Assembly (NCBI RefSeq): GCF_026151205.1 | Contig: NC_087083.1 | Span: 8,243,460 to 8,307,459, forward strand | Direction of reading: 5' to 3' | Length of the DNA stretch: 64,000 nt | DNA from: Bolinopsis microptera | Taxonomy: Eukaryota; Ctenophora; Tentaculata; Lobata; Bolinopsidae | Shown here: one piece after another, positions 23,234 to 57,904 of the stretch | How the letters are laid out: every line of letters starts with the position of its first letter | Position numbering within the stretch: the stretch's first letter is position 1 | Position numbers and translations under genes: made by a program | Notes under the pieces: model-generated | What the model was told of the DNA's origin: nothing | The model's database searches: none | What the model saw: only the letters and a program-made list of their open reading frames with translations

Positions 23234-24732
23234 AACTCCATTTTTGTATGGAGGAAGTAGACATTAAATATTAACAAGGTCTATCCTACTCAATTTTTGG
23301 GTTTTGACAGTTTGTTTACAGCTTTATTTTTTAACAGAGTGATAGTGACAAAAAGGAGCTGAAAACATACAGATAGAAGAACATGTAGAATTAGAGACAA
23401 ATATCTCTAAACATTTTATAAAGTATTACAAAATTGCACTAAAGATGCATGTTATTTCGGAAAAATTATAAATCGCATGATCTATAATACATGATCAATA
23501 TATGTTTACTTAAGACAATATACTAGTATTAACAGCACTTCAAAATATTTATTGAGTAAATGATGGACATGTTTTAATTTGGTTCAGTCAGTTCGAAACC
23601 TGACTGCACAGCATGTAAGTTTGCGTCTAATTTCTCAATGAATAAGGGGTTGTTCACATATTATGTAATAAGTGAACGATGGTGTAAAAACGAAACGGCT
23701 ATTACACGGCAACCGGCTTGACTGGCCTTAACGGGGCGCTCCCTGGTCAAAGGATAGGGCGACTAGAACTAACTGAGCCTGTATTAAACAAGGTCTAAAA
23801 CCTAATAAACTGCTCCCGATAAACGAGGAGTAAGGAACGATATATCTGTTTTAAACGAGATATGTGCTGGTAATATAGTGACAACTCCCGATGAACGAGG
23901 AATTAACACTAAAAAGCTAAAATGTACTGCTCCCGATGAACGAGGAGTCAAATAAACGCAACTGTATAAAACGAGCTACGGATGCACCTGTCTGAAACAA
24001 GATACAAACCTAATATTTAAACTCCCGGTAAACGAGGAGATGAGGACTCAGCAACTCGCGGTAGTGGCTGCACGTAGATCTGACAGTGAACTCCGGTGAG
24101 CTGCGATGTGGTGACTCAGTCTGTTTAAAAACAAGAAAGGTGGAAGGCTGCCGGAGTCTGTATTTTAAACAAGACTTAAATTTAGTGTACTGTACCAAAT
24201 AAAACGCTCTCGTATAACGGTCGAAAACTTTATAACTCAAAACCCGACGAATGCCCGGTTACATTTACAGAAGTGTCTATTTCCCAAAATCTCTCCCTTA
24301 TCTCTAAAATAGGGCTCGTAAAAATGTGATAAATAAACAAACGGCCGAACGAACTAAAGATAAGAAAGTAAATGTACGAATATGAAATAGAAACGTGAGA
24401 TAACATTAAAATAAAAGTGGCAAAAAAACGATGAATTAAATATTAAAATGTGAAATAAAACCTAAACTGAGGACTACAAAACTAGGCATGTTAAGCAAAC
24501 TGCTTACAAATATTTCGTATTCCTACAGTTGCTTTGCAAGCCCTGTATTGTAGAAACAGTATGTAATTCTACTAAAGTACTATCGATACTTTCGACTCAA
24601 GAACATTGTATAATTTATATGAGAAAGTTATTATGTGATGATCATTTAAACAATACAATATCAGTCAATATAATACGTAAAACCCAGTAACATTAGTAAG
24701 TAACTTCAAACATATCTACTACAAAACTAAAG
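23234..24732. other. Non-coding interval with spaced hairpin repeats
   Basis: No supported gene. From about 23,810 to 24,040 a near-palindrome of the form ACTCCCGATGAACGAGGAGT recurs four times (near 23812, 23886, 23931, 24020), each able to form a short stem. It lies just downstream of the stop codon of the minus-strand helicase gene and could belong to its 3' UTR or to an unrecognised repeat. Near 23,645 is a stretch (GTTCACATATTATGTAATAA) resembling the end of a common MITE type. Confidence 0.5.
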
Positions 24733-26910
24733 TTAATAATGTTCTATCAAGCGAGCTACAGGCTCCAATTTCTCTAATAAACGGTAAATGTTATCATCTG
24801 CTTCATTATAATATTCACTATCTGTACTATCTAAACTATCTTCATCTGATGATAACGGGTGGTGTAGTATCAGAACAGAGCACTTAACCCGTGCTCGTGA
24901 TATTGCGGTGTAAAGAACACGCAGATCATGATCCTTATCTCCCTCCAATTCAAGCACCGCAATAACAGCAGGCCACTCACTTGAATAGCAATCCCAACAC
25001 TTACACGGTATCATTTCGTAACCTTCAGTTCTCAGAGTCTCTACAGCAGTCTGTGCAATCATAAAACCATAATCGTCGTAGTATATTATTCCTATATCAG
25101 TATAATCTAAATCATTTGTCTTCAATAACATCTTAAATTCATTTATCAAAAGGTCTTTCATCAATATTTTACTGGAATCGCAACAGAGTCCCTCCATAAA
25201 ATGTATCGTAATTAATGGTCCATGTATGAAATGTCCATACTCCTGTTTTGGGCACAATTTCGCTCTCGCAGCGCTTTTTGCAGTATGTAAATCCCTGGAC
25301 ATTTCTAAAACAATTGATATGTCGTAGGTGTTCCTCAAGTTTTTATACAAATAAACTCGCTGCTCATCCAACAACAACGCCAGTTCAGCTAAATGTTCGC
25401 CATAATTCTGTTCGCCATAATACAGATACCATAGAGACTGTATCATGTCACATGCTACCCACATGTGTTGTTCATCAGATAACTTTCTTAGAGTAACAAT
25501 AAAATCTCGCAGCGTAACGTCAAAGTAAGAAAAATAGTTCATGAAAACCTGCATATCGTCTATAAATACACTACTGTCCGTTTGAGATGCCATCAGATTC
25601 GATATCTTTTCCACATGTCCCGGGGCATTGATAAATTCTGGTTCTATCTTGATGATAACAACTTGGTAGAGTTCCTTAATTCTACTTTCTGCATTTATTG
25701 TCTCGTCAACTCCTGTGAACCAGCCGTCTTGAAATTCACCCGTGATCGTCTGATACCTTACCCTTGCGTTACCCAGTGCAGTTTCATACAAGTTAGCATT
25801 ATTACCTTCACCAGCAAATGTGATGACCACGATCTTGTTCTTCTTATAAGATAACGCTAACTGTAGAATCTTACCGCACATTATAACTGTTTTACCAGTC
25901 CCAGCCGGTCCATTTATCCACATCAACTTTTCTTTTGATTTTAATGTATTGTCTTGTTCAGCAGTCAAATATTTGATACCGACAAAATCTCTAACGTAAG
26001 GAGGAGCTTCTACTACACCAGGATTTGAATTAACATTTCTCACTCCCTTTTTCTCACACGTGACAATTGCATTCCTCAACTGCTCATCAATATCTCGGAT
26101 ATTCCATCCCAAAGAACATCTCCTTTTATCCCATTTATTATCCTTGTTAGCCCGCAAAGCGAGAAGGATGTTCTTGGTCTCCTCAAATGTTTCAGGACAC
26201 TGTAGTTTTTCAGAAGCTTTGTCTGTGATGTTTTTCTTCCACCAACGGCGGAATTTCTCGTCATTATAAGCTGGTTCCTTGTATTCATTTGGTGCAACAA
26301 CAACCTTGAATACTGGAGGGATAACACTTCCTAACATTTCAGCAATCCCCAGGATAAGTTTTTCTGTTCGACTCGCTTGAAGTTTTCCATACCCCAGATC
26401 AGATTTGTTTTTCTTGACTTCAATAATAACGAAATATTTTTTTCCCATTATGACGAAGTCACACTCCCCTTCTTTAACATTGTCGTCTCGATCACATGGT
26501 TTCCCTTCTTTCTTGCCTTTTATATATGAATGGTCTCCAACGAAAATCTGGTAATCACTGTGAAGGTATTCCAAACTTTGAAGTACTATGATTTCCTCAC
26601 GTTGCTTCATTCTCTCAAGAACCCTAAAAACCTTAACCTCAGCCTCAAACCCATCTTGGTTATCTTTAATATCTTCACAGTATTTCTTAATTTCTGGCTT
26701 TGATTTCTTGACCTTGTTGACAGATTTCCAATCAATTTTATCGACGAATTTAGATATCGGCAATGGTGGCACCATAACCGGGTAATAGACAGATCGTTGT
26801 TCAGGATTCTGTTTGGGTAGTGGTTGAAATGTTTGGATGTAGTTTTCACGTATATCTTTACCGTCTGTTTTCAGTTCTGCAACCCGAGCACCTGATAAAT
26901 TGTTTGGCAT
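24733..26910 (-). CDS. Intronless NERD-like nuclease / superfamily-1 helicase fusion, 725 aa
   Basis: A single open frame from ATG at 26910. Residues about 88-195 look like a NERD or PD-(D/E)xK nuclease-related fold: Asp151 in GECDFVIM, then Glu164 and Lys166 in VIIEVKK, then a conserved-looking Gln in GKLQASRTEK. A superfamily-1 motor follows: Walker A GPAGTGKT (334-341), Walker B VFIDDMQ (448-454), a motif III-like CDMIQSLW (487-494), LRNTYD (525-530), and a UvrD-type C-terminal motif LYTAISRARVK (666-676). The C-terminus is acidic. The helicase half resembles the DUF2075/Schlafen-type group. Probable role: nucleic-acid processing or defence, inferred only. Single-exon structure contrasts with the intron-rich neighbours and suggests a retrocopy, transfer or element-borne origin. 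No signal peptide. Confidence 0.85.
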   Translation of the reverse strand: MPNNLSGARVAELKTDGKDIRENYIQTFQPLPKQNPEQRSVYYPVMVPPLPISKFVDKIDWKSVNKVKKSKPEIKKYCEDIKDNQDGFEAEVKVFRVLERMKQREEIIVLQSLEYLHSDYQIFVGDHSYIKGKKEGKPCDRDDNVKEGECDFVIMGKKYFVIIEVKKNKSDLGYGKLQASRTEKLILGIAEMLGSVIPPVFKVVVAPNEYKEPAYNDEKFRRWWKKNITDKASEKLQCPETFEETKNILLALRANKDNKWDKRRCSLGWNIRDIDEQLRNAIVTCEKKGVRNVNSNPGVVEAPPYVRDFVGIKYLTAEQDNTLKSKEKLMWINGPAGTGKTVIMCGKILQLALSYKKNKIVVITFAGEGNNANLYETALGNARVRYQTITGEFQDGWFTGVDETINAESRIKELYQVVIIKIEPEFINAPGHVEKISNLMASQTDSSVFIDDMQVFMNYFSYFDVTLRDFIVTLRKLSDEQHMWVACDMIQSLWYLYYGEQNYGEHLAELALLLDEQRVYLYKNLRNTYDISIVLEMSRDLHTAKSAARAKLCPKQEYGHFIHGPLITIHFMEGLCCDSSKILMKDLLINEFKMLLKTNDLDYTDIGIIYYDDYGFMIAQTAVETLRTEGYEMIPCKCWDCYSSEWPAVIAVLELEGDKDHDLRVLYTAISRARVKCSVLILHHPLSSDEDSLDSTDSEYYNEADDNIYRLLEKLEPVARLIEHY

Positions 26911-27923
26911 ATAACAAACGGTTGATAATTCAGCGCTTTATAGATATTATTATTAACAACACATAAAAGGATAGTGGGTATCTATCTAATTCTGTGGATT
27001 TTGACCCTCAGGGAGATAAAATTGCAACAGTAAAAGAGGACATTAATCTTACCAATTAGGTCTGATTGGAGGGTTGTTGAACTTGAAGGTTCGTTTTCAG
27101 TCATTTTGATCTTTCTAGCACATTCTAGAAATTGTTTTGTAAGTCAGATTTTATAGACAGTGTGATAAATAATAAAAGAATTCGTCTTAAATTTTATTGA
27201 TTTTCAACGAGTAAAATTAGTACTTGTGTTTTCAGCTAATTAAAATGTGGTGAATTTAAGATTAGCCACAAAAAGTAATGACACAGCAATTATTCAATAA
27301 AATACCAATATATTGTAAATCATCATAAATAACTTAAATTCTACTTTAACAATCTCGAGCTATATAAACTGTTTTCCTAGACCGCAAATAAGTTCAACAA
27401 TAATTCTTACTCTGTTGGCTAAGCTAACAAATTCAACAGGGTCAACACAGTTCAACATGTTGACACGTGCAACACTTTTAACATGAGTCAAACACATTTA
27501 AAACAGTCCACGAAGAGGTTATTGAAAACATGACATAGTCATAATCAAGACTTCAGTAAGTCAATACATTGATAAAATTGAAAAAAAAAGAGAATATATA
27601 TTCTCAAAACTATAACGTTTGTAGTACTCCCATTCGATGAATAACTCATTAAAAATACAAAAATATGTTTATTAAACTAAACGCCGATAACCACAATAGT
27701 TCGATGATTTAAATCATACTAAGAAAACTAACTATTGTCAACAATCATTGCTCCATTAGATGCCAAAATAGCTTATTTACTTAATAAAGCAATATCTTCT
27801 TGACCTTTCTGAAGATTAAATATATGATAAACATCCCCCTGGCCCCCACAATATTAATCACAATCACAAACATCATATTAGTATATAATCATTACCTTTA
27901 AGTTTCGGCTAACAATAAGATTT
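26911..27923. other. Intergenic: helicase upstream region and glucosidase II alpha 3' flank
   Basis: AT-rich, no reading frame or RNA gene recognised. Both flanking genes read on the minus strand, so the part near 27,900 should hold the 3' UTR of the glucosidase gene (an AATAAA is present on the plus strand near 27,783, which is the wrong strand) and the part near 26,911 the leader of the helicase. Confidence 0.6.
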
Positions 27924-30900
27924 TCAAGAAAATTCAATGTCCCACTCGTCGGACAGAACAAGGTTAGGTTTCTTTAAAGTAATCGAGTGTGAGGATTTGC
28001 TGAAAGTTGAGATTATCGGACTTCCTGTGGGGATTGGAATCATCAATTGGATAATTAGATAATTGATTAGTAAGTATATCATAATTATATGTATTATAAT
28101 TAACAAGCATATCATCACGTTCTTATGAACTTATCGAAGATTCAATCGGCTAAATCAGCCAAATTAAACAATGCTCCAAATTAATTTCCATTAAAACTAA
28201 ATCAAATTTCCATGAAAATATGTATAGAAAATTATATAAAGATTTGAACAAATGAAGAAAAAAAAGGTAAAAAGCTTTGTTACCGTTATGAGAAGCAGAT
28301 AGCGAGTTATCAACTCCCAGAATAACTACTCTCTCCACACCGGCTGACTTGTAATGAGCCTCTTTTACACCAGACCTGGAGAAAGTACACGTGATGTAAC
28401 ATGTGATATAACGCGTGATATAACACGTGGTGTAACACGTGGTGTAACACGTGATATAACACGTGTTATATCACGTGGTGTCATTGTGACCTGGATATAC
28501 TGATATACACCATGTTATTGACTATTGGGATAAAATTCGAATTTAATAATCACCGCGTAGCGGGTTAAAATACGTATATAAAAAGATAAAATATTCAAAA
28601 ACTAAAAATAATGGATATTATCTCTGACCGGCACGATAGTTTATTGCCCGTGAAGCTGAGGTTCTGAAAACTAAACTTGTTGTTTTTGTAGTCGAACGAT
28701 TTGCCATCGTCAACATACGCTTCACCCTTCGCTTCACCCTGTGGTTATCATATAATTAATTAATTATTACAGACATAATTAATCAATTATAACTTTTTAA
28801 CTCAACGAATGTACATAGTACATCAAAATGGCAGTATTACATTAAAACAACGCGCTTGCGAAGATAAAATTTAATGCCAAATCAGTGATTTTCACAGAAG
28901 AAAATTCAGAAAAATATCACGTGACGCCACAAACCACGTGACGTCACACGTGCAGTGACCATTTACACGTGCCATGACGTCACAACCCACCTTGTTATCA
29001 AGAGCCACGATAATAGTGTATGGATCAGACTCCATTAATTGGGAAGACCGTCTGACTCTCATTTTAGTTAATAATATACTTCCTGAGATAAAAATAGTAG
29101 TAGTGAAATATAGTTCAGAAAATCACTTTAAACAGAAAAGTTGAATATTGTCTTTGGACTTTTGAAATGTGATTTGGAACATTAAAATAACGTTGTTCGA
29201 ATCTCATGCAGAAAAAATGTATTTCAGAGTAAATGTGAACAGTAACGCTCCCCGGGGGGGGGGGGGGTATGCAACGACCATTAATGACCATTAATGACCA
29301 TTAATGACCATTAATGACCATTAATGACCATTAATGACAATGTCAGTTTTGTCAAAATTTCATCTACTGACATTAATGGTCATGTTTTTTCCAGCACTTC
29401 TTAGAGCGAAAAGGACGGACGCCTGCATCACTTAGACCCTACCTTAAGTTAACTAACTACAAGTATATGTTATTATTTTACATTTACAATTAGAGGTTCG
29501 AAAGAGAAAACTTAGAATAGAATCTTCCGTGGTTAGGCAGACCTTCCAGAATATCACTTGAGTGGATTCCAGAGTGAGTTAGGGATTACATTTATTAAGT
29601 TCGAATGTAATGAAGAACAAATTTTGCGGCCACGGTATTTAAACCAGATAACAGTTGGTGACTTATAGTTATCAATAATAATAATTCAAAGGGCAATTTA
29701 GGAGTATCAGATCGTATCAATAGTAAAATAACAATCAATAATAAAATAATTATAACACGGGTATTAAAATTAAATACTTCGTTCCCGTTCTTATATCATA
29801 TCAAGATTTATATTTTAGCCAAATCATTATGCTAGTCGATTATATAGTAATTACACAGTAGATGAACTATTCAACTTTAGCACTTCATGAAATACATCGT
29901 CATCAGTCTGAATCGGACAACAAAAAAGCTGATCTTTTCCTAGGATTAGAAAGAACAATTCGTTTACAGTTCAATACTCTGCCTTTGGCAGTTTAAAGTT
30001 TCGACCCAAAATCGAGCACTGTCATCATGATAGTGACAAATTGATGCGACAGGAATTCGTCTAGATCTACAGTTGCCCTTTTTTGAAGCAGAGACACTCA
30101 TTGATAAGATGGTACCGAGGCAACGAAGGGGACGTTTAGCATTTTTTGGAACAAAGGTAGCACTTAATGAGTCGCCCTTTCGAATTGTTCGACGTTGACA
30201 GGGCTTAGAAGAATTTTTGCAGCCCGGTTGGTATGGCACAGAACCCTCGAAACAGCCGGTACCAAAAAATTTCGATCTCCGACTTTTATTTCCAAATATC
30301 GTCTTACGATGGCATAGAAGGTACTGTGAGGAGGTATTGAAAATCCAAATTATCAAAAGCAATCAACACAAATAAAGGAAATCAATACAATTCAAATCCA
30401 CGCAAACTGCAAACAAGCATGTATACTAAGTCAACTGCAAACAAGCATTTATACTAAGTCAACTGTAAACAAGCATTTATACTAAGTCAACTGCAAACAA
30501 GCATTTATACTAAGTCAAATGCAAACAAGCAAACAGACAAGACAAGTTACCAACGTATAACAGAATGGTGCTTAGCACTCATTCCGAAACCGAGGTCCGA
30601 GCCTCTATTAGGCGAATATAAATTCGTTTTCTCAAACGAGACTCTGGCAATCGATGTAGGGGGCCTGGGGGCTGTGAGAAACTTTATAGAAGTGATACAA
30701 AGTGATCATAATTGTAAATTTCTTGGACATGTTGCTTCCAAGATAGTTCAGAATTTCAATTATTTAATGACCATTAATGACCATTAATGACCATTAATGA
30801 CCATTAATGACCATTAATGACCATTAATGACAATGTCAGTTTTGACAAAATTCCATCTACTGACATTAATGGTCGTTGCATACCCCCCCGCTCCCCAATG

Positions 30901-33900
30901 TAATTTGAGCTACTCTCGGAGGACAGAATTATTTAATTCAACAGTGTATACAAGAATTACTATTAGTGTATACAAGAAGTGTATACAAGAATTACTATTA
31001 GTATCATATGGAGATGTAAAATGTGTACATACATTTTACATCTCCATATAATACTAATTCTTGAATGACTTAAATGCATTTTAATATGTTTTTAATGTAG
31101 AAGCGTGCAATAAACGTAATCATTTATTTAATTATTACATTACCTCCTTTAATAAAGAGTGGAGTAGAGGATAGCTTAACAGAAATGTGCATAGTTCCAG
31201 GAGAGTATTTAGTATAACTGTGATAATCGTACCAGACCTGACACAATATTTACTTGAGTTTCACTGAGCTGTTATCTGACGAAAATGCTCAAGAAAAATT
31301 GACTTTGAAGTCAAACATATCAGAACTTCACCAGATGTGATTAAAAACATTAATACTTGAGTTAAGAACTATATTTTGTGTTAAGGAAACCTGTGGACCA
31401 GGGAGAGTAACCAAATGACTCTTCTCGTTGGACTCCAGGACAGGTGAAGATAACAGACTGTCTCCCAGCAGGAACTCTTCTTGGTTTGAGTAAAGGGAGG
31501 TGTCGGAGGGATGGTCGTACCATAGCGGTCTGCAATATAACTTACTCTTATCATTACTTATCATTACTTAGTACCATAGCGGTCTGCAATATAACTTACT
31601 CTTATCATTACTTATCATTACTTAGTACCATAGCGGTCTGCAATATAACTTACTCTTATCATTACTTATCATTACTTAGTACCATAGCGGTCTGCAATAT
31701 AACTTACTCTTATCATTACTTATCATTACTTAGTACCATAGCGGTCTGCAATATAACTTACTCTTATCATTACTTATCATAACTTAGTACCATAGCGGTC
31801 TGCAATATAACTTACTCTTATCATTACTTAGTACCATAGCGGTCTGCAATATAACTTACTCTTATCATTACTTATCATTACTTAGTACCATAGCGGTCTG
31901 CAATATAACTTACTCTTATCATTACTTATCATAACTTAGTACCATAGCGGTCTGCAATATAACTTACTCTTATCATTACTTAGTACCATAGCGGTCTGCA
32001 ATATAACTTACTCTTATCATTACTTATCATTACTTAGTACCATAGCGGTCTGCAATATAACTTACTCTTATCATTACTTATCATAACTTAGTACCATAGC
32101 GGTCTGCAATATAACTTACTCTTATCATTACTTAGTACCATAGCGGTCTGCAATATAACTTACTCTTATCATTACTTATCATTACTTAGTACCATAGCGG
32201 TCTGCAATATAACTTACTCTTATCATTACTTATCATAACTTAGTACCATAGCGGTCTGCAATATAACTTACTCTTATCATTACTTAGTACCATAGCGGTC
32301 TGCAATATAACTTACTCTTATCATTACTTATCATAACTTAGTACCATAGCGGTCTGCAATATAACTTACTCTTATCATTACTTATCATAACTTAGTACCA
32401 TAGCGGTCTGCAATATAACTTACTCTTATCATTACTTAGTACCATAGCGGTCTGCAATATAACTTACTCTTATCATTACTTATCATTACTTAGTACCATT
32501 AAGGTCTGCAATATAACTTACTCTTATCATTACTTATCATTACTTAGTACCATAGCGGTCTGCAATATAACTTACTCTTATCATTACTTATCATTACTTA
32601 GTACCATAGCGGTCTGCAATATAACTTACTCTTATCATTACTTATCATAACTTAGTACCATAGCGGTCTGCAATATAACTTACTCTTATCATTACTTAGT
32701 ACCATAGCGGTCTGCAATATAACTTACTCTTATCATTACTTATCATTACTTAGTACCATAGCGGTCTGCAATATAACTTACTCTTATCATTACTTATCAT
32801 AACTTAGTACCATAGCGGTCTGCAATATAACTTACTCTTATCATTACTTAGTACCATAGCGGTCTGCAATATAACTTACTCTTATCATTACTTATCATTA
32901 CTTAGTACCATAGCGGTCTGCAATATAACTTACTCTTATCATTACTTATCATAACTTAGTACCATAGCGGTCTGCAATATAACTTACTCTTATCATTACT
33001 TAGTACCATAGCGGTCTGCAATATAACTTACTCTTATCATTACTTATCATTACTTAGTACCATAGCGGTCTGCAATATAACTTACTCTTATCATTACTTA
33101 TCATAACTTAGTACCATAGCGGTCTGCAATATAACTTACTCTTATCATTACTTAGTACCATAGCGGTCTGCAATATAACTTACTCTTATCATTACTTATC
33201 ATAACTTAGTACCATAGCGGTCTGCAATATAACTTACTCTTATCATTACTTATCATAACTTAGTACCATAGCGGTCTGCAATATAACTTACTCTTATCAT
33301 TACTTAGTACCATAGCGGTCTGCAATATAACTTACTCTTATCATTACTTATCATTACTTAGTACCATTAAGGTCTGCAATATAACTTACTCTTATCATTA
33401 CTTATCATTACTTAGTACCATAGCGGTCTGCAATATAACTTACTCTTATCATTACTTATCATTACTTAGTACCATAGCGGTCTGCAATATAACTTACTCT
33501 TATCATTACTTACTGGTTATATTACATAACTTACTCTTATCATTACTTCCTTGTTATATTACCTCTTAAAACATGAAATTGCTGCTCATCACTTCTGATA
33601 ACTTGAAAAAGCTCAACAATTGAGATTCAAAACATACATACATTGTATACGTACATTGTATATTAGCATAATATGACGTCATTACCCATTAAGAGGCAAA
33701 TAAAATGACGTCATCAAATTGTCACGTGACATTAACTAACCTCATAATAGGGGAATTATCAACAGAGGCTTTATAAAATTGGGTATAAATGTAAGGTAGA
33801 AGCTGATAACGCAGGATAAGTGCATCTCTTATCAAAGCTGTGTTTTCTTCACCTGAAACACAAGAATTTATTTTTAAAAGGAAAATTATTGGATATTACT

Positions 33901-36900
33901 TTAACGAAACTGTTCCTTAAATATAAATCGTGTATCAATCCTTCGCGGGTACTTGAGTACCAAACAAATTAATTAGCTTTTAAAATACATGCGGAAGAAA
34001 ATGCCTTATTCAATAAATAAAAATTAAAAAATGTCATAATAAGATGAATTAAAACAATTAAAAAATATAAATATAAGTTAAAAGATAAAAGCAACTCACC
34101 AAACAACCAGGGTTCCCGGCGTCTGGTATCAATGTGTGCGTGAGCGCGAAGGAAGGGTTGTAATACTCCAACCTGGTGGAGAATACTTTAGATATCATAT
34201 ATTATATACACCCTTATATATATAATATAAGTATATATACTCTTTATAGAGCTAGACAACAATTTGTTGATTTTATTAATGATAAATGTAAAAAAGTGGT
34301 ACATGATCTGGACATGCTTAAGATAATAGACATTGTTTAAAGATACTATTTAAGTAAAAAGAAAAGCACAGATATTCCCAACTTAAGCACTCCTTCTAGA
34401 ATAACAGCAGTAAGAAACCCACTGGATACTGAAAATGTAGCTCACCTGGTACCACCTAACTAGTAGCTCCGTGGCTGGGCTCCCGAAGAAACCCCCAACA
34501 TCCGCCCCCACGAAGGTGTATCCCGCTACGTTTAAAGAGAGTAACATTGGGATGGACATCTTGAGGTGCTCCCACGAGGCGTAGTTATCCCCCGTCCAGA
34601 TGGGTCCTGAAGTAGGAATAGGTATAAGATAAATCACGTGACGTTATCACACCGTCACGTGACGTCATCACACATTCATACCGTCACGTGATGTCAACAC
34701 TCTGTCACGTGACGTCATCACACATTCACACCATCACGTGACGTCAAAACTTTGTCACGTGACGTCATAACACTGTCACGTGACGTCATAACACTGTCAC
34801 GTGACGTCATAACACTGTCACGTGACGTCATAACACTGTCACGTGACGTCATAACACTGTCACATTATGTCACGTTCGGAAACTCAACATCATGATAAAT
34901 AAAATAAATACCCCTCACCTATCCTATGGGATCCTACAAAGAACGCTCGGGACAGCACGAAGGGGCGAGCAGTATTCTGAGATCGGAGAACTTGTCCATC
35001 ACTAGATGCTTTGTGCATGTAGTGTCCGTATATATTGTGGACATCACGGTGCTCCCACTGCTCTGCGTGTAGGTTGTCTTTAGGCATGCTCACCTGAGGG
35101 GAGTGGGAGTTGAAGGTTCTAGGAAGTTTTCTTGGTTTCCTGGTCCATCTCAGAGTTAAAACCACTTTAAAACGATCGCATTTGATTTTAGGATTTTTAA
35201 TTACTAATGGCGAGGATGGCGAAAAAAAACCTCACAGTATTGGTAATACCAGGGTAAATGTATGGAGACATGTTTCGGATAAATGGTGAAGGATAATGAT
35301 CCCCCTTAGCAATCTCAATAACATTACCAATAGACTTCAGAACACATAACACTAAAATTTGTCTAAATTAGTCTAAAATTTAGCTAAAATAGTCCCACCT
35401 CAGGTCCATTAAACACACTGGGCTCGTTCATATCATTCCAAGTGAAGAGCGAGGGAGAAGAGCCCTGGTAATTGTCGTATGAGAATTGTTCTGCCCACCA
35501 CTGTCGGGCACAGGGCGAGGTGTAGTCTATCCACGAGCTGGTACCTGGCAAAGTGTGACGTCATACAACGCGTTGTGTGGCTTCATGTCACGTGGTGTGA
35601 CGTCATAGCTGCACGTTGTAGGACTTCATATCAATTGTTTACATTGTGACGTAATGACAAATTTGTTAAGTTGTGGATTGTTTTCAGTGGTTTAACATGA
35701 GGACAACAGCTGATGTTATTCCTTACCAGGCCAGCAGTGTCCCTCAAAGTTCCCGCCGTCCTTGTTTTGAACGTAAATCCCACAAGTGGAGTGATCCTTC
35801 CCCGCTTTGTACAAACCCCAGTTCTTGTCAACCTGGCATATGGGGCGTCAATCGATGATAGTGAGAATTTGATGTTGAGAGAAGTCGCCATTTGATTGGA
35901 TCGTAAATACACAAAACTGTTTGAGATGACAGTTTTCATTGAAAACTGTTATTTATTAACTTAACTTTAAGTTGAAAACGTTTTAGTTTACTAAAGTTAT
36001 CGTTACTTCCAATTTAGACAAATCATACACTTATCTTGTTCATAAGATGATTAGATAAAATGTTTAGATAAAATGTGTCAAAAGACAAGTTTTATAATGA
36101 GAAGTAAGACATACCTTTATATGAGGATCTATAATAGTAACCATGTTTCTACCTTTACCAGCTAAAGTACTCAACATTTCCTTGCTGTCAGGAAACTTCC
36201 TAGCATCCCATGAGAAATACCTGAAACAAATATACTTCGTACACACTTTCAAACACAAGGAAATATTTTTCATTGTTAGATGTCAAACACAAGGAAACGT
36301 TTTGTTTTGACATATGGATACTTACTGAATTGTATCAGGGGGTATCAGTAGAGTAATCCTTACCTGTGGCCTCAGGGCCATAGTAATGGATAGCAAAGTG
36401 ATGAGCAGGTTACATGATCACTTGATTAAATAACCAGGACCTCCGGCGTGACACCCGAGTAGGCCAGCTCTGATTTTTCTACTGTCATCAAAATTTAAAG
36501 GAAGAAAACCAATTCAGATGATAAGCATCTAATCATGTGGTCACACGTTGTCAAATGTTTAAAGTGATTTACCTTCTACCATCATTATGTTACAACGTGT
36601 GACCGTATGTTACAACGCAACGTGTGACCACATGATCAGATGTTTCAATTGATTTACCTTTTACCATCAGTATGTTCGATATCTAGCCAGATTACATCCA
36701 TTGGTATATCGTACTTATCAAAATTAGCGTCAACTCTGAAATTATTGATTGTCAGTAACCGAAAAAACATCCTTCGTATCAAATCTAGGAAGAATTGCTG
36801 TACAATATAAATAGTGTGTAGCAGTGAGAACAAGGACGATTAAATAAACTGGAAATATGAGTTTTCTATTCAAGATCACTTGATGTAAAATATAACATTT

Positions 36901-39900
36901 CCAATGGATGGCTACAAGACCTCGTTTTAATTATAACACCAACAAAGAGCTTTATTACTCAGATGTTAATCAAATAATGTTGATCAAGGTTCAAACTTCA
37001 ATACGTGTTGGTATCCCAGAAAGCAGAAACGCTATTAATTAATTGGAACACGTTTTTGACGTAGAGGTAGGTCGCGCGGCGCTGAGTGCGCGCCAATTAA
37101 CCGATAAAACAGTTTTGTTTACATACAAGCGATCCAACAAAACTAGCAATACCAGAAGATGAATCCGAGATTTTGGAACAGTTTGAGACAACTTTTTATA
37201 GATGTTTTTTGGCTGTATTTGTCCGTAAACTAAGTCGCATTTGCTCTGGTATGATAGGATGGCATGTGTACTGACATTTCCAGCTAGTTTTGAAATATTT
37301 ATCGAATTCATGGAATGAATGAAATGAACAAAAAATGAACATTGTCTCAGAATGTCCTAGACTGAGCTGAAACCGATTGGGATCGATTGCTATTGATACC
37401 AGGAGTGTCCCCGGGAAGTTTGGTGGGTCCAGCTTGTTCAGCGATTTTAGGGTAAAGTTCATTTTTGTTCATTTCGTTCATTTCGTGAACCAGGGGATCA
37501 TTTGGCACTTCTGAGTGGCTGAACATGTTAGTAAACATACCCCTCCACCATACCAGATAGATTTTAAGTCAACCCAGGCATAACTACTGCCCCAAAAGCC
37601 TGTTCCAAAGTTGTCTCAATTCTGTTCCAGAATCCCAACTACTCTGAAACCAAAATGGAACATTGCCCCCAGAGCCTTTTCTGAGCTTGCTAGGGCCACC
37701 AAACTTTTCATGGACACTCCTGGTATCAATACCAACAGACTCTGATCGGTTTCAACTCATTTTAGGCGATTTTAGGGTAAAGTTCATTTTTGTTCATTTC
37801 GTTCATTTCATGAACCAGGGGATCATTTGGCACTTCTGAGTGGCTGAACATGTTAGTAAACATACCCCTCCACCATAGCAGATAGATTTTAAGTCAACCC
37901 AGGCATAACTACTGCCCCAAAAGCCTGTTCCAAAGTTGTCTCAATTCTGTCTCAATTCTGTCTCACTGTTCCAAAATTGTTCCAAAATCTCGGATTCATG
38001 AACTCAGCAATACCCCGCTAAAACTTGTCATGCCGCGCTTGTACAGTAGAAGTGCTTACCCTAGAACATCCTTTTGGTCGTTATAATTCCATCTACACTG
38101 GTGATAAGAGATCGCAAAAAGCTGAAATGATTCGTTTAGTTTTTACTACTTTGTCACAAATGATGAACGAAATGAGAAGGATATAATTGAAAAGCGGACT
38201 TAGGTTGTAAACAAACCCACTTTAGTTATTATATGAACAAACCAGCCTTAGTTATAAACAAATTAACTTTATCATAATCAAACCAACCGGTGGCAGATAG
38301 CTAGGCCCGAACACATTACTGTATTGTCTTGTTACATCTTTAGGAGTAGGTCCTGAATATTTAGGGTGATTAATAAATTAGGAAAACTATTTTAAACGGA
38401 TCAAGTCTACCAAAATTTCATTAACCACATTATATCATAAATAATATCTATCAGCTTTCTTAAAGGAAAGAAATTGAAATTAGTCCGTTATCATATTTAT
38501 TAAATGTGATAACGGGCTAATTTCAATGTCCTTCCTTTCAGAAAGTTGATAAAATGAGGGAATTTAAGAAAACTAACCGAGGAACAAGAAAAGGTCAAGC
38601 AGCCCACTCTCAGACATAAAATGGGTATCTATTCTGCTGACTTCATCCGATGACATAATTGAGGATAGCACCCGCCCCACTATTGACTGGGACAAGGATG
38701 GGTTGTTACATTTATTGAGTGGGTCTTAGAATTAAGATAATTTTGGTTGCCCGTTTGTTTAAAATCAGTAATAAGATATTTTCTGTGTACAAATTCAGTT
38801 CCACTACATTAACTGATAAGAATATTGGTATCAATAACCAACTATCAAATATCACATGAAACTAACTAACCTTTTCATTACTATAGTTAATATCGACCCA
38901 AGTTTCCGCAGCATTGAGCCACATCATACCAACACTGTGTTTTGGGCTGAGAGCGTGGACGTAGGGGATTGCACCGTAAAGGGCCATTGGGTTGTCGAGT
39001 TCGTACTCGAACACGTCCAAATTGTATAGCCGGTATGGGTCTGTGCTACTGAAAGTGGGGTATAGTATTTACTAACTGGTACTTGGGACAGTATGACGTC
39101 ATAGCACGTGGTGTGACGTCATGACACGTAGTGTGACGTCATATCACGTGATGTGACGTCATAGCACGTGGTATGACTTCATATCCTCTCTAGAGTTTGT
39201 CCCAACTTCCCTCAGTAACATAATGTAGATAGCTTTGTCTTGGTCGGCCTTGCTGTTCTCTACAATGCAAAGTTTCCCATAAGACTAAATCACTGGCCAG
39301 TAGCTCAGGATGTCTGATGCAGTGTCCCGCCATTTTTAATCTCCTGCCTCGTAACTTGTTTGACAGCCTAGGTAGGCTACTATACAAAGTAACATTGCTG
39401 TCCTTCCATGAGATATCCAGCACCATACGGCATACGCAACATCTTTGTGAATGTCCCGTCCAGTTTTTGTCAGTGTCCAGGTTTCTGATTCTTAGAGCAG
39501 TACTGACTCACAAGCCGCAATGCTATTATCTTGAACATTTTCCCACTGCCTTTGAGAGCAAGTGGTGTGACTTCATTAAACGTGGTGTGACGTAATATAA
39601 CGTGGTCATGGGACATGGTGTGGCGTCATATCGCGTGGCGCAGTGTGACTTCATATCACGTGGCGCACTGTGACTTCATATCATGTGGTGTGACGTCATA
39701 TCACGTGTTAATAATAAACAATCCAACCACTAACCCAGTCCCTTTGAGAGCCAGCGTGTCCGCGTGTTCAGGTAACCCGTACAATTTATCAAATCCGGTA
39801 AAAGTAACGTCCAGTGATATCGCTCTGGGTCCTCTGAAATAAATATAATAATTATAAAATAATAAATAAAACGGTTAGCTAGGTCACGTGATGTGACTAC

Positions 39901-42900
39901 ACGTGTATCGTTACAATGGTCACGTGACGACACGTGTACGACACAAGAATTTAAGTACTTTTTAGTATCAAAGAAAATATTTTAACGACAAACTGACTGA
40001 GTAACTTTAATTAAAGCATGTAGACTGCTTCACAATATTTCTATTTCACTAACCTAGGATTCTACTCATGAGAATAAGACGTGGTACTGTGATATGTTTC
40101 ACTAACCTAGGATTCTACTCATGAGAATAAGACGTGGTACTGTGATATGTTTCACTATATTTCACTAACCTAGGATTCTACTCATGAGAATAAGACGTGG
40201 TACTGTGATATGTTTCACTATATTTCACTAACCTAGGATTTGAGTCGTGATGAGAGTTGAAACTCTCCTCCCAGTCCATTTTAGCTATCTCCTCAGCTGA
40301 TATTCCCAAATCATCCTCCTCATTCTCGCCCTCCTCTCCTTCCTGATGCTCTTCCTCATTCACTTCACTGGGGGAGTATGGTGGTAAAGTGAAAGTGAAG
40401 TCTGATTAGCTTCAACCTTCATTTCACTATATAGTTTGAGCTACTATTATATTGTTCTATATCATAAGCCTTCGAGTTTTGAGTTCAAGAGCTATCATGT
40501 TCTGAATATTATATTATTATGAGAGATGCTAATTAATTATAAGAAATTTTATACCATTTAGTAAATTAAATTGCTGCAACCTCATTCAACTCCATTACTA
40601 AAGCAAAAAGCGGGAGTTTCGCGACAGGGATTATATAATATGGTTTACTACAATTAAATACTTATCAACATTCAAATATAATGCAGCTAATATACAGTCT
40701 TGATGTACTAAGAGAGATAAGAATTTTGCAGATAATAAATATATATATTTCAATGTCAACAAAGTAACTTTTAAATCAGGAGGTAAGATGCGAGCTGTGC
40801 TTAGCTCATAACTATTAGAATATTATAAGGAGTAACAGCACAGCAAATACACACAAATTTGTGATCGGTTGAACAGCAATTCAGCCCCTTTAAAACTTGC
40901 TTCTAGAAGATTCGAAGTTTTGCTACGAAATCATTAACATTAAGCAAAGAAGAAAAATATAATCTATTTAAAAACGAACGTTTCACACAAAGTAAACAGA
41001 AATTTTTCAGGGAAAATCCTTACTAAAAAAACAGCAGATGTTGCTTTCTGTGGTTAAGAAAATGCAAAAATAATGTTGAGATTTGTTAATAAAAAAGATT
41101 ATGAAGGAGCATATGTATGATGGCAAGTTAAGGTTGTCGTACCTTGGATCACTCTTAAAAGTACTAATGAGGTTGCTCCCTAAGGACAAGGCTTTGTTCC
41201 CTAAATCTGACAATTTCTGTCCTACACGAGACATTAGCGATCTGCGAGAAAAACTATCGTTACCATAGCAACGTGTATATCGTTACCGTAGCAACGTGTA
41301 TATCATAGCAACCATGCAGGGTGTAGCCACCTTGCTATGGTAACATACATTTAATGTAAGTCGAGATATTATATATAGCATGTACCGCAAGAAAGCAAAA
41401 ATAGGCTCTCTTGAATTGTGGTCGTGAGCTTGTGATACCCTAATGGACTACTTTTTTGTTCTTTGGTGATCCAAATCAGAGCAAAGACTACGGGTTAGAT
41501 GCTTCGAGAAAATTTTTATAATTGATGCACGCTGAATGTAATAGTAAAGATCTAAGTCTTGGTCTAAAAGTAAAGCTTAAATCAATCTATTAAACACATT
41601 AATAGAATCTTATACTACTCCTGAAAAACCGATAACGCAATATTAAGTTATAAGTCAATAATCCCAATAATGTATTATACAACAATATAATTATAACATT
41701 CAATTTATATTAGCGGATCTAACAGAATACCCAGCATTATATGCCATGACAAGAGCATCCCGTTAATCAGAGCGACACCCAACAAAATACCCAACAGTTT
41801 TACTTTCACTTTCATTTTCACTTTCACTTTCACTTTCACTTTTATTTTAACTTTCTCGATAACACTTTCGACATAATATCTTGAGTCTAGAGTGACAGCC
41901 TCCAACATAGCGACTGTCACAACTATAAAAAGGATTATGAAACTGAACTCTGGTATCAGAGGGACAACTCTCAAACTTCCACATTTTAGTTTCGGGTAAT
42001 TAGCGGGTAATTCATTGTGGGCCGCTCTGTTCAGTGTACAAAGATTATCTAATTTAACATGCAGATCAAGTCACTAGCTAAAAATGAATAAATAAATAAA
42101 TTCCAACATTTATTAAGTTATTAGACGGTTCAAAATAAAAAATATACCCAAAGAAGATGTACATTTAAGTCATTCAAGCGAAACTTAGTATGGAATAATC
42201 AAAATTATGCACTTTAACGTCAGTTCAGAATTTATTATATTATATGGACAAATATAAGGAATACCAGGAATATTATGAACAGATAATAATAATATACCTA
42301 TAATATATAATATATAATAATAACTATACAATATAACTAACAAATAATAATAATATACCTATATAATGTACAGGGTGGGCCAAAAGTCAGTACCCATACG
42401 TTGGCCTTTATAGCTCAGTCACTGAGTGCCCAATTTAAATACTTCTTTCTGGTATGACTTAGTACCACCACTGGTTCGAGGAATTTGTCAACTCGAAAAA
42501 TATTCGCGTTCATTTTTTTCAAATGGAGGTTCATTTTCACATTTATTTGATAGTTTGGATAGTCGGATCAAGCTAAATGTTATTGAATTGTGTTTGGCCA
42601 TTCGAATTACGTTTGTCCTGAAAGAATTAGAACAGTAGCTTCTCAGATAACCGAGATATGAAGCATAACGAGTTTATTCATTACGTGTGATCAGATGATT
42701 GGTTTACCTAATCACGTGATAAGGTGACCCCGTTAACTACCCCGTTAAACATTATGGGAATTGTTAAGGGTGCCCAATTAAGGTGTCGTGTCACGGTGTC
42801 ACATAATCATCCAGTCAATTTTGTTAACGAGATACAGAAAATGCTTGATAACTTCGTCATTTCTAATCCGTTTTGCCTCATGTTTTCAGATCATATGCAA

Positions 42901-44692
42901 CATTTGATAATCTACCGTCTCTAAAAAAATTAGGCGTTCAGCATGTTCAGAGAAAACAATATAGGTGTTTTAATATTGATTGGGCGTGGTCTAAAATATT
43001 CGAATTTTCAAATTTTGACGACGGAATCCTCGAACCAGTATATTCAGTATGCCATCTGCAAAGCAACAGCTCTCAAATATAAAACACGGCGGAGCTATTA
43101 AGGCCAACGTATGGGTACTGACTTTTGGCCCACCCTGTACAATATAACTAACGGTTTAAGAAGCTGCGTCTCCACGTGAAAGAGGCCACGTGCGTTAACA
43201 CTCGCCACCAGGGTCTCCTGCGCGTAAACGTCAATACGCAGGGGGTTGTAGTTCAACACTGCTTTGTGGGAGGAGAAAGAGACTGTAGCAGTCTGACCTG
43301 ACTTACTGAGAGTACAGCTGAAAGTAAGGGTTAATGTTAATTCCTTAATATATAATATATACTGTCTTATGATGTACAATGTACATTGTACAATGTACAC
43401 TACAAGTTAGAATAGGATGAGGGTATTAAATGTACATAGTAGAATCAGACTTCTTTCTAAAAGTGAAAGTGAAAGTAGTTTCTACTTTCTAACCTCTGAT
43501 CCTGTAATGGCGCCTCCCCCAAACTATCAACAGGACTGTACCGGGGGTGGACTGGTTCCTTCTCTTGTGCTGTTAACCGTATAGTGCTATCCTGCGGAAA
43601 ATTTGCATTGAAGGAACAGTGACAGAAACTTAAAACTAGAAACTGGAAAAAGTGAGAGCTTTCTATGAAGATAATGATTAATGTACGTTAATTTAAGTAA
43701 CATAACAACAGTAAGAGCATAATTAACAAGGTGCACGTAAATTAATTGTGTAACCCAGGTACAGCCTCTCTAAAAAAGTTTTAAAAAGCATAATTAAAGT
43801 AAGCTCGCCACCTTGAGCACCCTCAATATAACAGTGTGAGCGTGTTATTAGGTAACTTATATAATATAAGTTATATTAATTAAGTAATTACTCTACTTAA
43901 TTACTGATCATGGGCATACTAACAGGGGGCGCAGCGACCTCACTTCACACTACTAGACTAGATAACCTAAAAGCAGATACTGGGCTGAAGTCAGTAGATG
44001 AGATAGCTAGACTGATGGAAGACAGAAAGCTGTGGAGAACTGTTGTCAAATGATCTCGGGAATACTACCCGCCTTAAGTCAAGTCAAGTAAGTCAGTAAT
44101 TACTGATTAAGAAAAGTAAGCTCCCCGCCTTGAGCACCCTCAATATAACAGTGTGAGCGTGTTGTTAAGTAACTTATATATAAGTTATATTAATTAAGTA
44201 ATTACTCTACTTAATTACTGATTAAATTAAATAAGCTCGCCACCTTGAGCACCCTCAATATAACAGTGTGAGCGTGTTTCTCCATCTCGTGCTTCACAGT
44301 GAAAGTAACAGAACTCGAGTTAACTTGATTGATTGTCTCAGGGTTCACGTAGTAACCGCTCTTATTCTCCTCCATACCTCGTAATCTCCTGGAGTAGTGT
44401 CAAGTGAAAGTGAAATAGAAAGTGAAATAGAAAGTGAATCAGAATGTGAAAGTTGATAAATCACATTATGTGTTCATGCATTTGAAGGGAATTGTAAATC
44501 ATGTTACCAGCTGTATCATTTAAAAGTTATTTTGTTTCTTCTTTTGAGATATATTTAAAATCAATACTGCGAAAGTGAAAAGAAATTGATGACGTACTTG
44601 CAGAAGCCGCTCTGGTCGCATGTCTTGAAGTTGTTTCTGTTGACTGCATCTGACAATAGCAACAAGAAACTAACCAACCACCACCAGGACAT
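27924..44692 (-). CDS. GANAB: Glucosidase II alpha subunit (neutral alpha-glucosidase AB), complete, 25 exons
   Basis: Glycoside hydrolase family 31 enzyme of the ER lumen that trims the two inner glucoses of N-glycans in the calnexin cycle. Coding exons, 5' to 3': 44598-44692, 44244-44388, 43494-43591, 43153-43317, 41143-41241, 40233-40367, 39735-39833, 38871-39048, 38578-38686, 38288-38352, 38060-38121, 36658-36735, 36115-36220, 35727-35832, 35399-35544, 34919-35093, 34446-34606, 34100-34172, 33741-33852, 31391-31529, 31144-31237, 28991-29082, 28629-28738, 28284-28375, 27924-28024. They sum to 2,835 bp and every junction keeps phase, giving 944 aa, the length of the human enzyme. The start [16 protein letters not shown] is a signal peptide, followed by [11 protein letters not shown]. 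The nucleophile Asp is in [10 protein letters not shown] (exon 15), the acid/base Asp in WTGDN (exon 17), with GADVGGFF after it. Exon 5 corresponds to the segment alternatively spliced in mammals. No C-terminal KDEL; retention is via the beta subunit in known enzymes. Confidence 0.97.
28388..28485. repeat. CACGTG/ATATAACACGTG minisatellite in GANAB intron 23
   Basis: About eight near-copies of a 12-bp unit (AACACGTGATAT, AACACGTGGTGT) including the palindrome ATATAACACGTGTTATAT. Each copy holds an E-box CACGTG. It belongs to a set of related arrays in other introns of the gene. Confidence 0.8.
29254..30888. mobile_element. 1.6-kb G-tract-ended DNA transposon with 8-bp target duplication, in GANAB intron 21
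   Basis: Terminal inverted repeats of a G run followed by TATGCAACGACCATTAATG; the right end is the reverse complement. CGCTCCCC is duplicated at 29246-29253 and 30889-30896. Both subterminal regions carry tandem GACCATTAATG units (29270-29340 and 30765-30830) followed by the same ATGTCAGTTTTG... stretch (in the same, not inverted, orientation). A 29-31 bp tandem repeat sits at 30402-30530. A 132-codon minus-strand frame (29964-30362) matches nothing I recognise. 8-bp duplication would fit a hAT-type transposase. Confidence 0.78.
31519..33513. repeat. Minisatellite built from the GANAB exon 20 splice acceptor, about 39 copies
   Basis: Units of 54 or 44 bp (the 44-bp form lacks one TATCATTACT) repeat over 2 kb in intron 19. 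Read on the gene's strand, each unit carries TTATATTGCAG|ACCGCTATGGT, identical to the true 3' splice site and first bases of exon 20 at 31529. Only the last copy continues into coding sequence. Units are arranged partly as a higher-order 44-54-54 pattern, with two variants reading ACCATTAAGG (near 32488 and 33364). Each unit also has an AGAGTAAGT, similar to a 5' splice site. Confidence 0.95.
34632..34876. promoter_or_regulatory. Array of E-box/CRE composite sites filling GANAB intron 16
   Basis: About nine tandem copies of a roughly 20-21 bp unit with core GTCACGTGACGTCAT (for example TCACACCGTCACGTGACG, CATAACACTGTCACGTGA). GTCACGTGAC equals the published CLEAR/E-box palindrome and TGACGTCA is the cAMP-response palindrome. 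Binding is inferred from motif identity alone; a minisatellite without function is equally possible. Confidence 0.6.
36545..36735 (-). repeat. Duplicated 3' edge of GANAB exon 12 with its donor
   Basis: The exon 12 end and donor (CATACTGATGGTAAAAG|GTAAATCA, true donor at 36658) reappears at about 36558-36585 as CATAATGATGGTAGAAG|GTAAATCA, followed by similar flanking sequence (AACATTTGACAA..., AACATCTGATCA...). Confidence 0.75.
37154..38005. mobile_element. 852-bp inverted-repeat element in GANAB intron 11
   Basis: AGCAATACC is duplicated at 37145-37153 and 38006-38014. Inside, ATGAATCCGAGATTTTGGAACA-type inverted ends face each other, and a block of about 190 bp (from TTTTAGGGTAAAGTTCATTT) is present twice in direct orientation at 37445 and 37772. 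No reading frame supported. Confidence 0.7.
39066..39181. repeat. CACGTG/TGACGTCAT array, GANAB intron 7 (first of two)
   Basis: Five variants of TGACGTCATAGCACGTGGTG in a row; a second looser group with the same core lies at 39560-39711 in the same intron, and single copies occur at 35556-35625, 39884-39940, 33673-33730 and 28917-28980 in other introns. Confidence 0.7.
40048..40245 (-). repeat. GANAB exon 6 donor triplicated into intron 6
   Basis: The exon 6 end and donor AATCCTAG|GTTAGTGAAA (true site 40233) recurs three more times downstream, near 40052, 40106 and 40169, in 54-61 bp units that include CTCATGAGAATAAGACGTGG. Each copy has an intact GTTAGT donor. Confidence 0.88.
41262..41344. 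promoter_or_regulatory. Cluster of RFX X-box-like palindromes in GANAB intron 4
   Basis: GTTACCATAGCAAC (41262-41275) and GTTACCGTAGCAAC (41282-41295) match the X-box consensus GTNRCC-N(0-3)-RGYAAC exactly, and an inverted near-match TTGCTATGGTAAC ends at 41343. They lie within about 20-100 bp of the exon 5 acceptor (41241). RFX proteins control ciliary genes in animals; an intronic enhancer or internal promoter is possible, but no start site is shown. Confidence 0.55.
41797..41854. repeat. CTTTCA hexamer microsatellite
   Basis: About nine imperfect hexamers in GANAB intron 4. The same motif in either orientation (GTGAAA) recurs near many junctions of the gene (40385, 43460, 44400, 46815, 51670). 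Confidence 0.85.
42371..43137. mobile_element. Tc1/mariner-like MITE, copy 1, in GANAB intron 4
   Basis: 767 bp with inverted ends CAGGGTGGGCCAAAAGTCAG, over about 45 bp, and TA on both sides (42369-42370, 43138-43139). Nearly identical to the copy at 53634-54401 in opposite orientation. CAGGGTG ends and TA target fit the IS630-Tc1-mariner group; no transposase frame. It ends 15 bp from the exon 4 donor (43153). Confidence 0.88.
43800..44290 (-). repeat. GANAB exon 2 donor edge, three copies
   Basis: The exon 2 end (CACTGTTATATTGAGGGTGC then TCAAG|GTGGCG, donor at 44244) with about 110 bp of flank recurs near 44,119-44,160 and 43,801-43,845. The nearest copy has lost the GT (GCGGGG); the farther copy keeps it. 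The copies are separated by a shared TAAGTTATATTAATTAAGTA block and, in one gap, by a LINE fragment. Confidence 0.88.
43937..44053 (+). pseudogene. LINE ORF2 C-terminal fragment
   Basis: A 38-codon frame ending at a TGA reads ...[17 protein letters not shown]... then RTVVK, resembling the extreme C-terminus of non-LTR retrotransposon proteins. It is sandwiched between the first and second copy of the exon 2 edge repeat in GANAB intron 2. Remnant only; clade unknown. Confidence 0.55.
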
Positions 44693-56185: not shown

Positions 56186-57464
56186 AAAGATCATGAAATA
56201 AAGACTCTGCAAACATCTCAGAGAAATATTACCACCATAAAGAACAAAGAGGGAGTATCCTGGACCCCGAAATCCACCACTTTTCTGTACTTTCAGAGGT
56301 ACCAATGTGGCAGGAAACCAGGGCTCATGCTGCCGCTGAGCTAAAGCAGTAGAGGGGATGGCGGCTTCTCTAGGATCTAACACGTCCTGAAGCAGACCAA
56401 CACTATGTCCCAACGCACTGGTGTTGGGATGTCTGCCCCCGGTGCCTATCCGGGTCAATAAAGCAGTCAAGCATCATGTATGTTATGTTGAGCATTCTCA
56501 ACCAACAAATGTGGGAACTCCCACGAAAGACCAAAACAGATCTAAAGAGACACTTAACAACATTGGAAAATAGACTTCAATTTGTTTATATAATTTATAA
56601 AGCGTATATTATTGCCCACGTTAAGGGGCCTGTTAATAATTTATTAAATTATTAGCTATTTTAGATTTAATAATAATAACAGCTGCTAAGTAAATCGGTT
56701 TGAAGGAACAGACAGCAAGCTAGGTCTAGACACTCTGATGACGAGCCTACCATCCATCCAGAGTCTAAAATCTTCACTGTCTCGCTTGGTTTTGCATGTC
56801 AGGCTATTATGTAATATTGGTAGCAGTGGACAATTTCCGTTACCTCTGGATTGTGCTCAGCCAATTGCAACACTTGAATTACTTTATTGTATATATACTG
56901 TTTGACTCTGTTGTATTGTTTTGCATGTCAGGCTTCTTTCTCGGACTCTCACACAGGTACTGATGAGCACAAGCAGCAATGTGACCTACGTTCATTGTAT
57001 GTTATGACACGTCGTAGCCAAGCACTGTTCAACCATTGTATTGATGCAGCTGAAATAGAAGGGCTACGTTACATCACACTTAGATGAAAAAAGACAATTT
57101 TTGAGAAAAGACAATTTTATTATTCATCCATCATCACTAGCTCAATACACAATCAATTAATAAATTTAAAATATCCGAATAAACTTGATTTCAAAGTAGG
57201 TGATACAAGTATGCTAGCAGCTAGCGCGCTTGTATTTACTAATAATACACGCTGTTAGGTCTGACCACACCACCACTCACATGCCACAGCTGGTGAAAGG
57301 ACCCAGGCGCTATTAAGCTTTTATGAGCCCTGGTTGACTGCTGAGAGTGGCGACGTGTCTGACATTAATTTTGTTTTCCTTATAAAGAACTTATAAATTA
57401 AGTTATATAATTGTTATGCGATATTTAAGTCACAGCTGCTCGCAATACATTATTAAATTGACTC
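56186..57464 (+). other. LINE C 3' region and two unidentified exon-like frames
   Basis: After the LINE C stop, UTR-like sequence runs to about 56,560. Two plus-strand frames follow: 56694-56903 (SIQSLKSSLSRLVL) and 56935-57087 (LYVMTRRSQALFNHC), the latter preceded by TTGCATGTCAG, a possible acceptor. The phrase TTTTGCATGTCAGGCT occurs twice (56795 and 56921). I do not recognise the protein; these could be exons of an unknown gene or chance. Confidence 0.3.
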
Positions 57465-57904
57465 AGAATAAAACAAATATTCAGAATAAAACAAAATATT
57501 CAAATCTCTTTATTCAACAATATTAAATCATTATAGAACCTAATTTGTGGCTTGATCGTTATGTTAGGGCTATTCTGTTAGCTGATGCTGACAGGCACTG
57601 CATGGGGCAGAGACTTAGGACCATTACGCTGGAGGCTTACAATGACCCTTTTTGAACCCCATGGCAGTGCTAGTTTTATTATGGTACAAATTGTAAATCG
57701 AAGTTATGAAAACGATCAAGTCACTCCTGTTTTACACTATCAACAGCTACTTAAAACAACCTAGATTGTACAACTCACTTTGAAGATTAAACTGTTAAGT
57801 GATGAGTGATTGGGCTCATTAAACATTTTAGTAGCGGAGACATGCGGATCAGCTTCTTGAGGTTCTAATAGTTCATTCAGACAAGAAGTTTTATTTTTTC
57901 AAAT

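Follow-up and report, generated by a model that had tools for sequence, protein, structure and literature searches.

Intron i17 of the glucosidase II alpha (GANAB) gene carries a minisatellite of 38 decoy splice acceptors, each unit repeating the 3' splice site of the next exon together with that exon's first coding bases. The array belongs to a known kind of repeat, the minisatellite that duplicates an intron-exon boundary, or 'mirage', and it probably represents a recent, largely neutral repeat expansion, in which the exon-proximal site would be picked by exon definition and stray products would be degraded. All positions given without a contig prefix refer to the window, i.e., the whole 64,000-nucleotide stretch of Bolinopsis microptera DNA that was analysed.

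An acceptor minisatellite in the glucosidase II alpha gene

The array intron spans 31530..33740 on the minus strand (2,211 nt, donor GAG|GTTAGT at 33740), between an upstream exon at 33741..33852 and a 139-nt exon at 31391..31529, which is the source of the repeated acceptor and of the 13 exon bases that follow it. The 38 decoy units occupy 31530..33481 (minus strand), each composed of 31 or 41 nt of intron end and 13 nt of exon start, and the array joins the exon directly at 31529. At its upstream edge lie two minus-strand copies of a 37-bp intronic repeat (33489..33562). Each unit repeats the acceptor TTATATTGCAG, and TTGCAGACC was found in 39 minus-strand copies between 31529 and 33481, corresponding to the 38 decoys and the real site, with no copy on the plus strand of the 64-kb window. 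This confirms the array as it was presented in the preliminary description, namely as a 38-unit acceptor minisatellite just before its exon that includes the first coding bases of that exon: the exact 13 bases are present in 36/38 decoys, while units 3 and 20 read ACCTTAATGG instead. Furthermore, a search of the 264.65-Mb assembly for the boundary 24-mer TTATATTGCAGACCGCTATGGTAC retrieved 39 exact occurrences, of which 37 fall in the window and the remaining 2 at a duplicate locus, compared to 0 for a reversed-pattern control, which excludes chance. The confinement of this 24-mer to two homologous loci also led us to reject the array as a mobile element.

The array has grown hierarchically. 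Units measure 54 bp in 28 cases and 44 bp in 10, a donor-like AGAGTAAGT is found in all of them, and they fall into only four distinct sequences (14, 2, 10, and 12 copies) that are arranged in the order aabcddcdacdacdacdaabcddcdacdacdacdaaaa. Compared with itself at a shift of 868, the array matches exactly over 979 nt, its longest such stretch; this match, together with the presence of only four unit sequences among 38 copies, shows very recent growth.

The host gene was mapped by tblastn with a human GANAB sequence as the query. Copy A of the gene extends over 27924..44689 on the minus strand, bounded by the stop codon and the N-terminal exon match, with exons corresponding, with gaps, to human residues 14-48 and 141-872. 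No exon was found by tblastn for human residues 49-140, and the number 20 that had been assigned to the array exon is therefore not established; introns i4-i22, of which all 19 were mapped, follow our own numbering. Removal of i4-i22 joins 20 exons into a frame of 743 residues, the best PDB match of which is neutral alpha-glucosidase AB (8d43, E 1.1e-254, residues 11-741). As judged from this match, the array-bearing gene is glucosidase II alpha, in agreement with the location first proposed.

The splice phase had been read correctly as well, since the array exon is in phase 2 (ATG AG|A CCG CTA TGG TAC = MRPLWY). The full C-terminus is obtained only from the 31529 site, and all 38 decoys lead at once to an in-frame stop, as had been anticipated for every wrong acceptor. 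The expected reading of Pro-Leu-Trp-Tyr followed by a stop applies to 36/38 decoys, whereas the other 2 read Pro and then stop; the loss of residues had been put too low, at about 160 compared to the 204-207 counted here. The mini-exons that had been considered possible, from a decoy acceptor combined with a decoy donor, would be 38 nt (28 cases) or 28 nt (10 cases) long and would carry the stop as well.

Given the stops in 38/38 decoys, a role as extra in-frame coding sequence is excluded. Two further uses of the decoys were considered and rejected. Recursive splicing finds no substrate, as joining the upstream exon to a decoy yields ...AG|ACCGC, which contains no GT and rebuilds no donor. 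Splicing within a single unit would span only 16 nt from the donor to the next acceptor, which is too short for an intron.

Decoy and real sites carry the same local signals

Splice-site matrices were derived from the gene's own 19 introns with a leave-one-out procedure. Scoring of the individual units, which the preliminary description had proposed as a check, gave one and the same PWM score for all 39 acceptors (38 decoys and the real site), and at 1.09 bits this is the lowest of 19, with the other acceptors ranging from 2.5 to 14.4; this value is reached or surpassed at 133/941 of the gene's other AG sites. The candidate donor noted in each unit was corroborated: AGA|GTAAGT reaches 3.74 bits, within the range of the true donors (3.1-10.6), and in a U1 duplex model its pairing energy equals that of the true donor of i17 (both -6.8 kcal/mol), while its matrix score is equalled or exceeded at 157/1136 GT sites, the array copies themselves among them. 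Each unit also contains a branch-point-like TACTAAG, located 39 nt before the next acceptor (29 nt in the 44-bp unit), which by a simple count ties for the best branch-point-like word among the 19 introns. With this word and a donor-like site in every unit, the decoys are better equipped than random AGs.

Local sequence thus neither excludes the decoys nor marks out the real site, and the single score shared by 39 acceptors leaves no local reason for the last one to win. The rule that the first AG after the branch point is used would favour the first decoy. Since the 39 copies are nearly identical, only position and downstream context distinguish them. GC content is 51.8% in the exon and 31.9% in the array; over the first 60 nt downstream, it is 51.7% for the real acceptor versus 35% for a sampled decoy, and a true donor 139 nt downstream exists for the real site only.

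These properties could be read as regulation, with decoys that compete with the true acceptor, a part of the transcripts that decays, and a copy number that sets enzyme output. We regard such a splicing rheostat as unlikely and do not favour it. The early stops from 38/38 decoys and from all mini-exons would suit it, although in AT-rich introns stops would arise by chance anyway. It would likewise be in line with a decoy acceptor that scores as well as a real one that is itself the weakest of 19, with a TACTAAG in every unit, with a decoy donor whose modelled U1 pairing matches that of the true donor, and with the difference of 38 versus 2 decoys between the two gene copies described below. 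However, recent homogenisation accounts for the unit sequences without any need for selection, and the rheostat requires leakage from the decoys, while amphioxus relatives of the array are described as lacking aberrant mRNA (PMC3087553, PMC3902484).

A second gene copy with two decoys

A copy of exons 4-23 (our count), termed copy B, is located at C12:8604000-8630000 and is colinear with window positions 24482-41113; the limits of the duplicated region are 24482-41113 in the window and C12:8604206-8629296, and the array exons of the two copies lie about 337 kb apart. The 20 exons align without gaps, with 2202/2233 bases identical; over the 744 codons, 25 changes are silent and 6 are replacements (dS 0.054, dN 0.0034, omega 0.064), with no stop in copy B. 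Taken at face value, these estimates indicate strongly purifying coding divergence and a gene kept under constraint, while the same pattern would also fit two former alleles.

The counterpart of i17 in copy B is 564 nt long and consists of about 8 copies of the 37-bp intronic repeat, followed by 2 decoys, the first of which has the variant acceptor TTATGCTCCAG, and then the exon. The number of decoys is therefore 38 in copy A versus 2 in copy B. Moreover, TAAGTAATGATAAGAGTAAGTTAT is common to the 37-bp and the 44/54-bp units. The likely history starts from an old 37-bp intronic repeat; a duplication then took in the acceptor together with 13 exon bases, and copy A later underwent an expansion. 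This acceptor-containing duplication likely either predates the split of the copies or is common to them through gene conversion.

N-terminal exons were found for copy A only. The A/B homology stops at window position 41113, and the next 10.7 kb of copy B matches the window over 161 bp only. Intron i5 measures 10,258 nt in copy B and 686 nt in copy A, with big insertions in copy B. Copy B may represent either a truncated paralog or a diverged haplotype that was misplaced.

This bears on a second alternative, slightly less probable than the rheostat, according to which copy A is a noisy copy under relaxed constraint that tolerates mis-splicing since copy B supplies the enzyme. The intact frame of copy B over 20 exons and its mere 2 decoys, about 337 kb away, would be compatible with such a division, yet copy B has these 2 decoys itself and could be a haplotype placed wrongly in the assembly. 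Furthermore, a search of C12:8604000-8640000 for N-terminal exons of copy B was negative, the exon-1 region yielded no match besides its own, and the exon at 43.1-43.3 kb has one other match only, in a 2-kb fragment on C7.

Boundary duplications at other sites

The process that produced the array has also affected other boundaries. When a 24-nt word of each boundary was compared with its own intron (at least 18 of 24 positions identical), copies were found for 3/38 boundaries in copy A (i17 acceptor, 38 copies; i4 donor, 3; i10 donor, 1) and for 2/38 in copy B (i4 and i17), compared to 1/684 boundary words tested against other introns and 0/56 words from exon interiors. The i4 donor minisatellite (40044..40240, minus strand), with the real donor at 40232 and copies at 40169, 40106, and 40053, is present in copy B too. 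At i10, a single duplication of an 86-bp segment (36563..36667, minus strand; real donor 36657, copy 36572) is present in copy A and absent from copy B, and thus looks like either an early, recent stage of array formation or a segment that B has lost.

A further donor minisatellite was identified at an exon end of a DDX42-like helicase gene (L049:996-1557, i.e., C1:14022122-14022663, minus strand), where 17 exact copies of ...GCTACCCCT|GTAAG follow each other in steps of 29-43 bp. The best match of this exon is DDX42 (8dpe, E 1.7e-43), and the repeat was not found elsewhere in the assembly. Only the first donor keeps the frame, and the other 16 lead to a stop, as do the donor decoys of i4 and i10. 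Across the four arrays, a stop thus results from 58/58 decoys (38+3+1+16), and only the exon-nearest site is productive.

In an automatic survey of loci from three other families, 1/53 and 0/51 boundaries had copies, i.e., 1/104, the one case being the DDX42-like donor array, with the boundaries called from match edges by a matrix of 18-19 sites, so that some are certainly wrong; the first part used 61 of 87 matches and the second 37, taken from 50 of 73. The three boundary arrays of the glucosidase gene may therefore not be typical. Tandem arrays make up 14.1% of this gene's other intron bases, and at such a density an array that overlaps a boundary needs no special cause. An enrichment of arrays at boundaries was not supported (2/38 boundaries in a TRF array versus 14.1% intron cover); the third boundary case, i10, is absent from the TRF table.

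These additional boundaries allow for a broader claim, in which boundary minisatellites are recurrent, fast-evolving loci of splicing noise in this genome and the glucosidase array acts as a heritable rheostat. Each extra decoy would send more pre-mRNA to decay, and copy number changed by slippage would tune ER glucosidase output. We consider this combination more doubtful still than either of the preceding alternatives. A special design is also disfavoured by the weakness of the decoy acceptor and by the boundary duplications at other sites and in another gene.

Least probable, and in our judgement very unlikely, is an assembly artefact, with the array or its copy number being wrong. An exact self-match of 979 nt at a shift of 868 is of the repeat type that assemblers misjudge, and one amphioxus mirage is described as misassembled in a draft genome (PMC3087553); nevertheless, copy B independently contains boundary repeats of like make-up, the DDX42-like gene has such repeats with a different sequence, and contigs of 15-26 Mb suggest long reads, which are able to span 2 kb.

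The window contains several other repeats. Intronic minisatellites built on CACGTGACGTCA-like palindromic words are located at 34634-34863, 39094-39183, and 39562-39707. Two arrays of about 178-bp repeats (48101-49624 and 49712-51199) have consensus units that are reverse complements of each other and are thus arranged head-to-head. Dispersed repeats at 15603-16456 and 42361-43146 are present in at least dozens of copies on many contigs, with 93-98% identity among the matches listed. Moreover, the dispersed repeats at 57463-58507, 59110-60630, and 63587-63900 adjoin one another at other loci, while in the window they are split by a repeat of about 3 kb (60629-63593) that is about 99% identical to copies elsewhere; the region 57463-63900 has the appearance of nested mobile elements.

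Proposed origin and implications

The favoured reading, a recent and largely neutral boundary minisatellite, would begin with a short tandem duplication that fused the last 31 intron nt to the first 13 exon nt. An internal 10-bp slippage would have created the 54-bp form of the unit, and replication slippage or unequal exchange would have multiplied first the units, then 152-bp triplets, and finally a block of 868 bp, the exact duplication of which shows a recent lengthening of the array. That the array overlaps the boundary by a few exon bases may be a mutational accident invited by this gene's introns. The exon-proximal acceptor, the donor 139 nt downstream, and the exon-like composition between them would still define the exon, and the repeats would for this reason remain intronic. 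Stop-bearing products of other choices would probably be removed by NMD, and the array would then be near-neutral and free to change its length.

The array amounts to a natural experiment on 3' splice-site choice, in which one acceptor with its surroundings is present in 39 near-identical copies. Branch-point scanning predicts the use of the first acceptor, exon definition that of the last, and the 2-decoy duplicate and the mirror-image donor array of the DDX42-like gene provide ready controls. If the decoys leak, the length of a minisatellite would be linked to enzyme dose; if they do not, exon definition would strongly override identical local signals. The length of the array, the contrast of 38 versus 2 decoys between duplicates, and the mirror-image donor arrays make the locus more useful than a single curiosity.

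Comparison with known systems

Mirages are described in a study of amphioxus globin genes as minisatellite-like duplications of intron-exon boundaries, a name first given at Adh3, where somatic instability was reported (PMC3087553). According to the same source, the BflGb6 mirage, of 6 units in one haplotype and 3 in another, repeats the 3' end of an intron and the 5' part of an exon, the BflGb9 mirage involves the donor side, and RT-PCR suggested that regular splicing is undisturbed (PMC3087553). Further amphioxus mirages were found in troponin C and PGBD5 (PMC3902484). Copy numbers given for haplotypes or assemblies are 6 and 3, 7 and 2, and 6 and 3, and splicing is described as undisturbed by the mirages of Adh3, globin, troponin C, and PGBD5 (PMC3087553, PMC3902484). 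With 38 units, the glucosidase array differs from these cases, where the numbers given, Adh3 not included, reach at most 7 (PMC3087553, PMC3902484).

The glucosidase array shares with the mirages a minisatellite-like tandem structure (38 units of 44/54 bp), units that span the boundary (31/41 nt of intron end and 13 nt of exon start), copies that keep splice signals (one PWM score for 39 acceptors), and an unstable copy number (38 in copy A versus 2 in copy B, as compared between the two gene copies). It differs in its 44/54-bp unit and in the gene concerned. The mirages of the cited papers come from cephalochordates, a matter of distribution and no defining trait; searches for the COX1 family and for mir-124 yielded no match here, an outcome that carries no weight for or against such an affiliation. 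A literature search, with subscription journals mostly outside its scope and hence weak as evidence of absence, returned no boundary minisatellite in a glucosidase gene.

A minisatellite in human IFI6 (6-16) reportedly yields multiple splice donor sites (NAR, 1995, cited in PMC2572611). As in the present case, a splice site is multiplied at an exon edge, and the DDX42-like and i4 donor arrays come closest to it. The i17 array, by contrast, multiplies acceptors, while those of i4, i10, and the DDX42-like gene multiply donors, and the use of several sites is implied for IFI6. NAGNAG tandem acceptors, which lie 3 nt apart, resemble the array in placing several competing 3' splice sites at one exon; however, the spacing in the array is 44/54 nt, and none of its alternatives keeps the reading frame open.

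Tandem duplications that carry splice signals have been discussed as a route to intron gain (PMC3087553, PMC2812944), and in human segmental duplications, minisatellites are reported to change the structure of genes (PMC2812944). Tandemly duplicated splice signals, as found here, are likewise raw material for new exons and introns, although in the glucosidase gene they remain within an intron that was already there, with no sign of a new one. To the known mirages, the present analysis adds a duplicate with 2 decoys, two donor-boundary duplications in the same gene, and, in a DDX42-like gene, an independent donor array of 17 copies.
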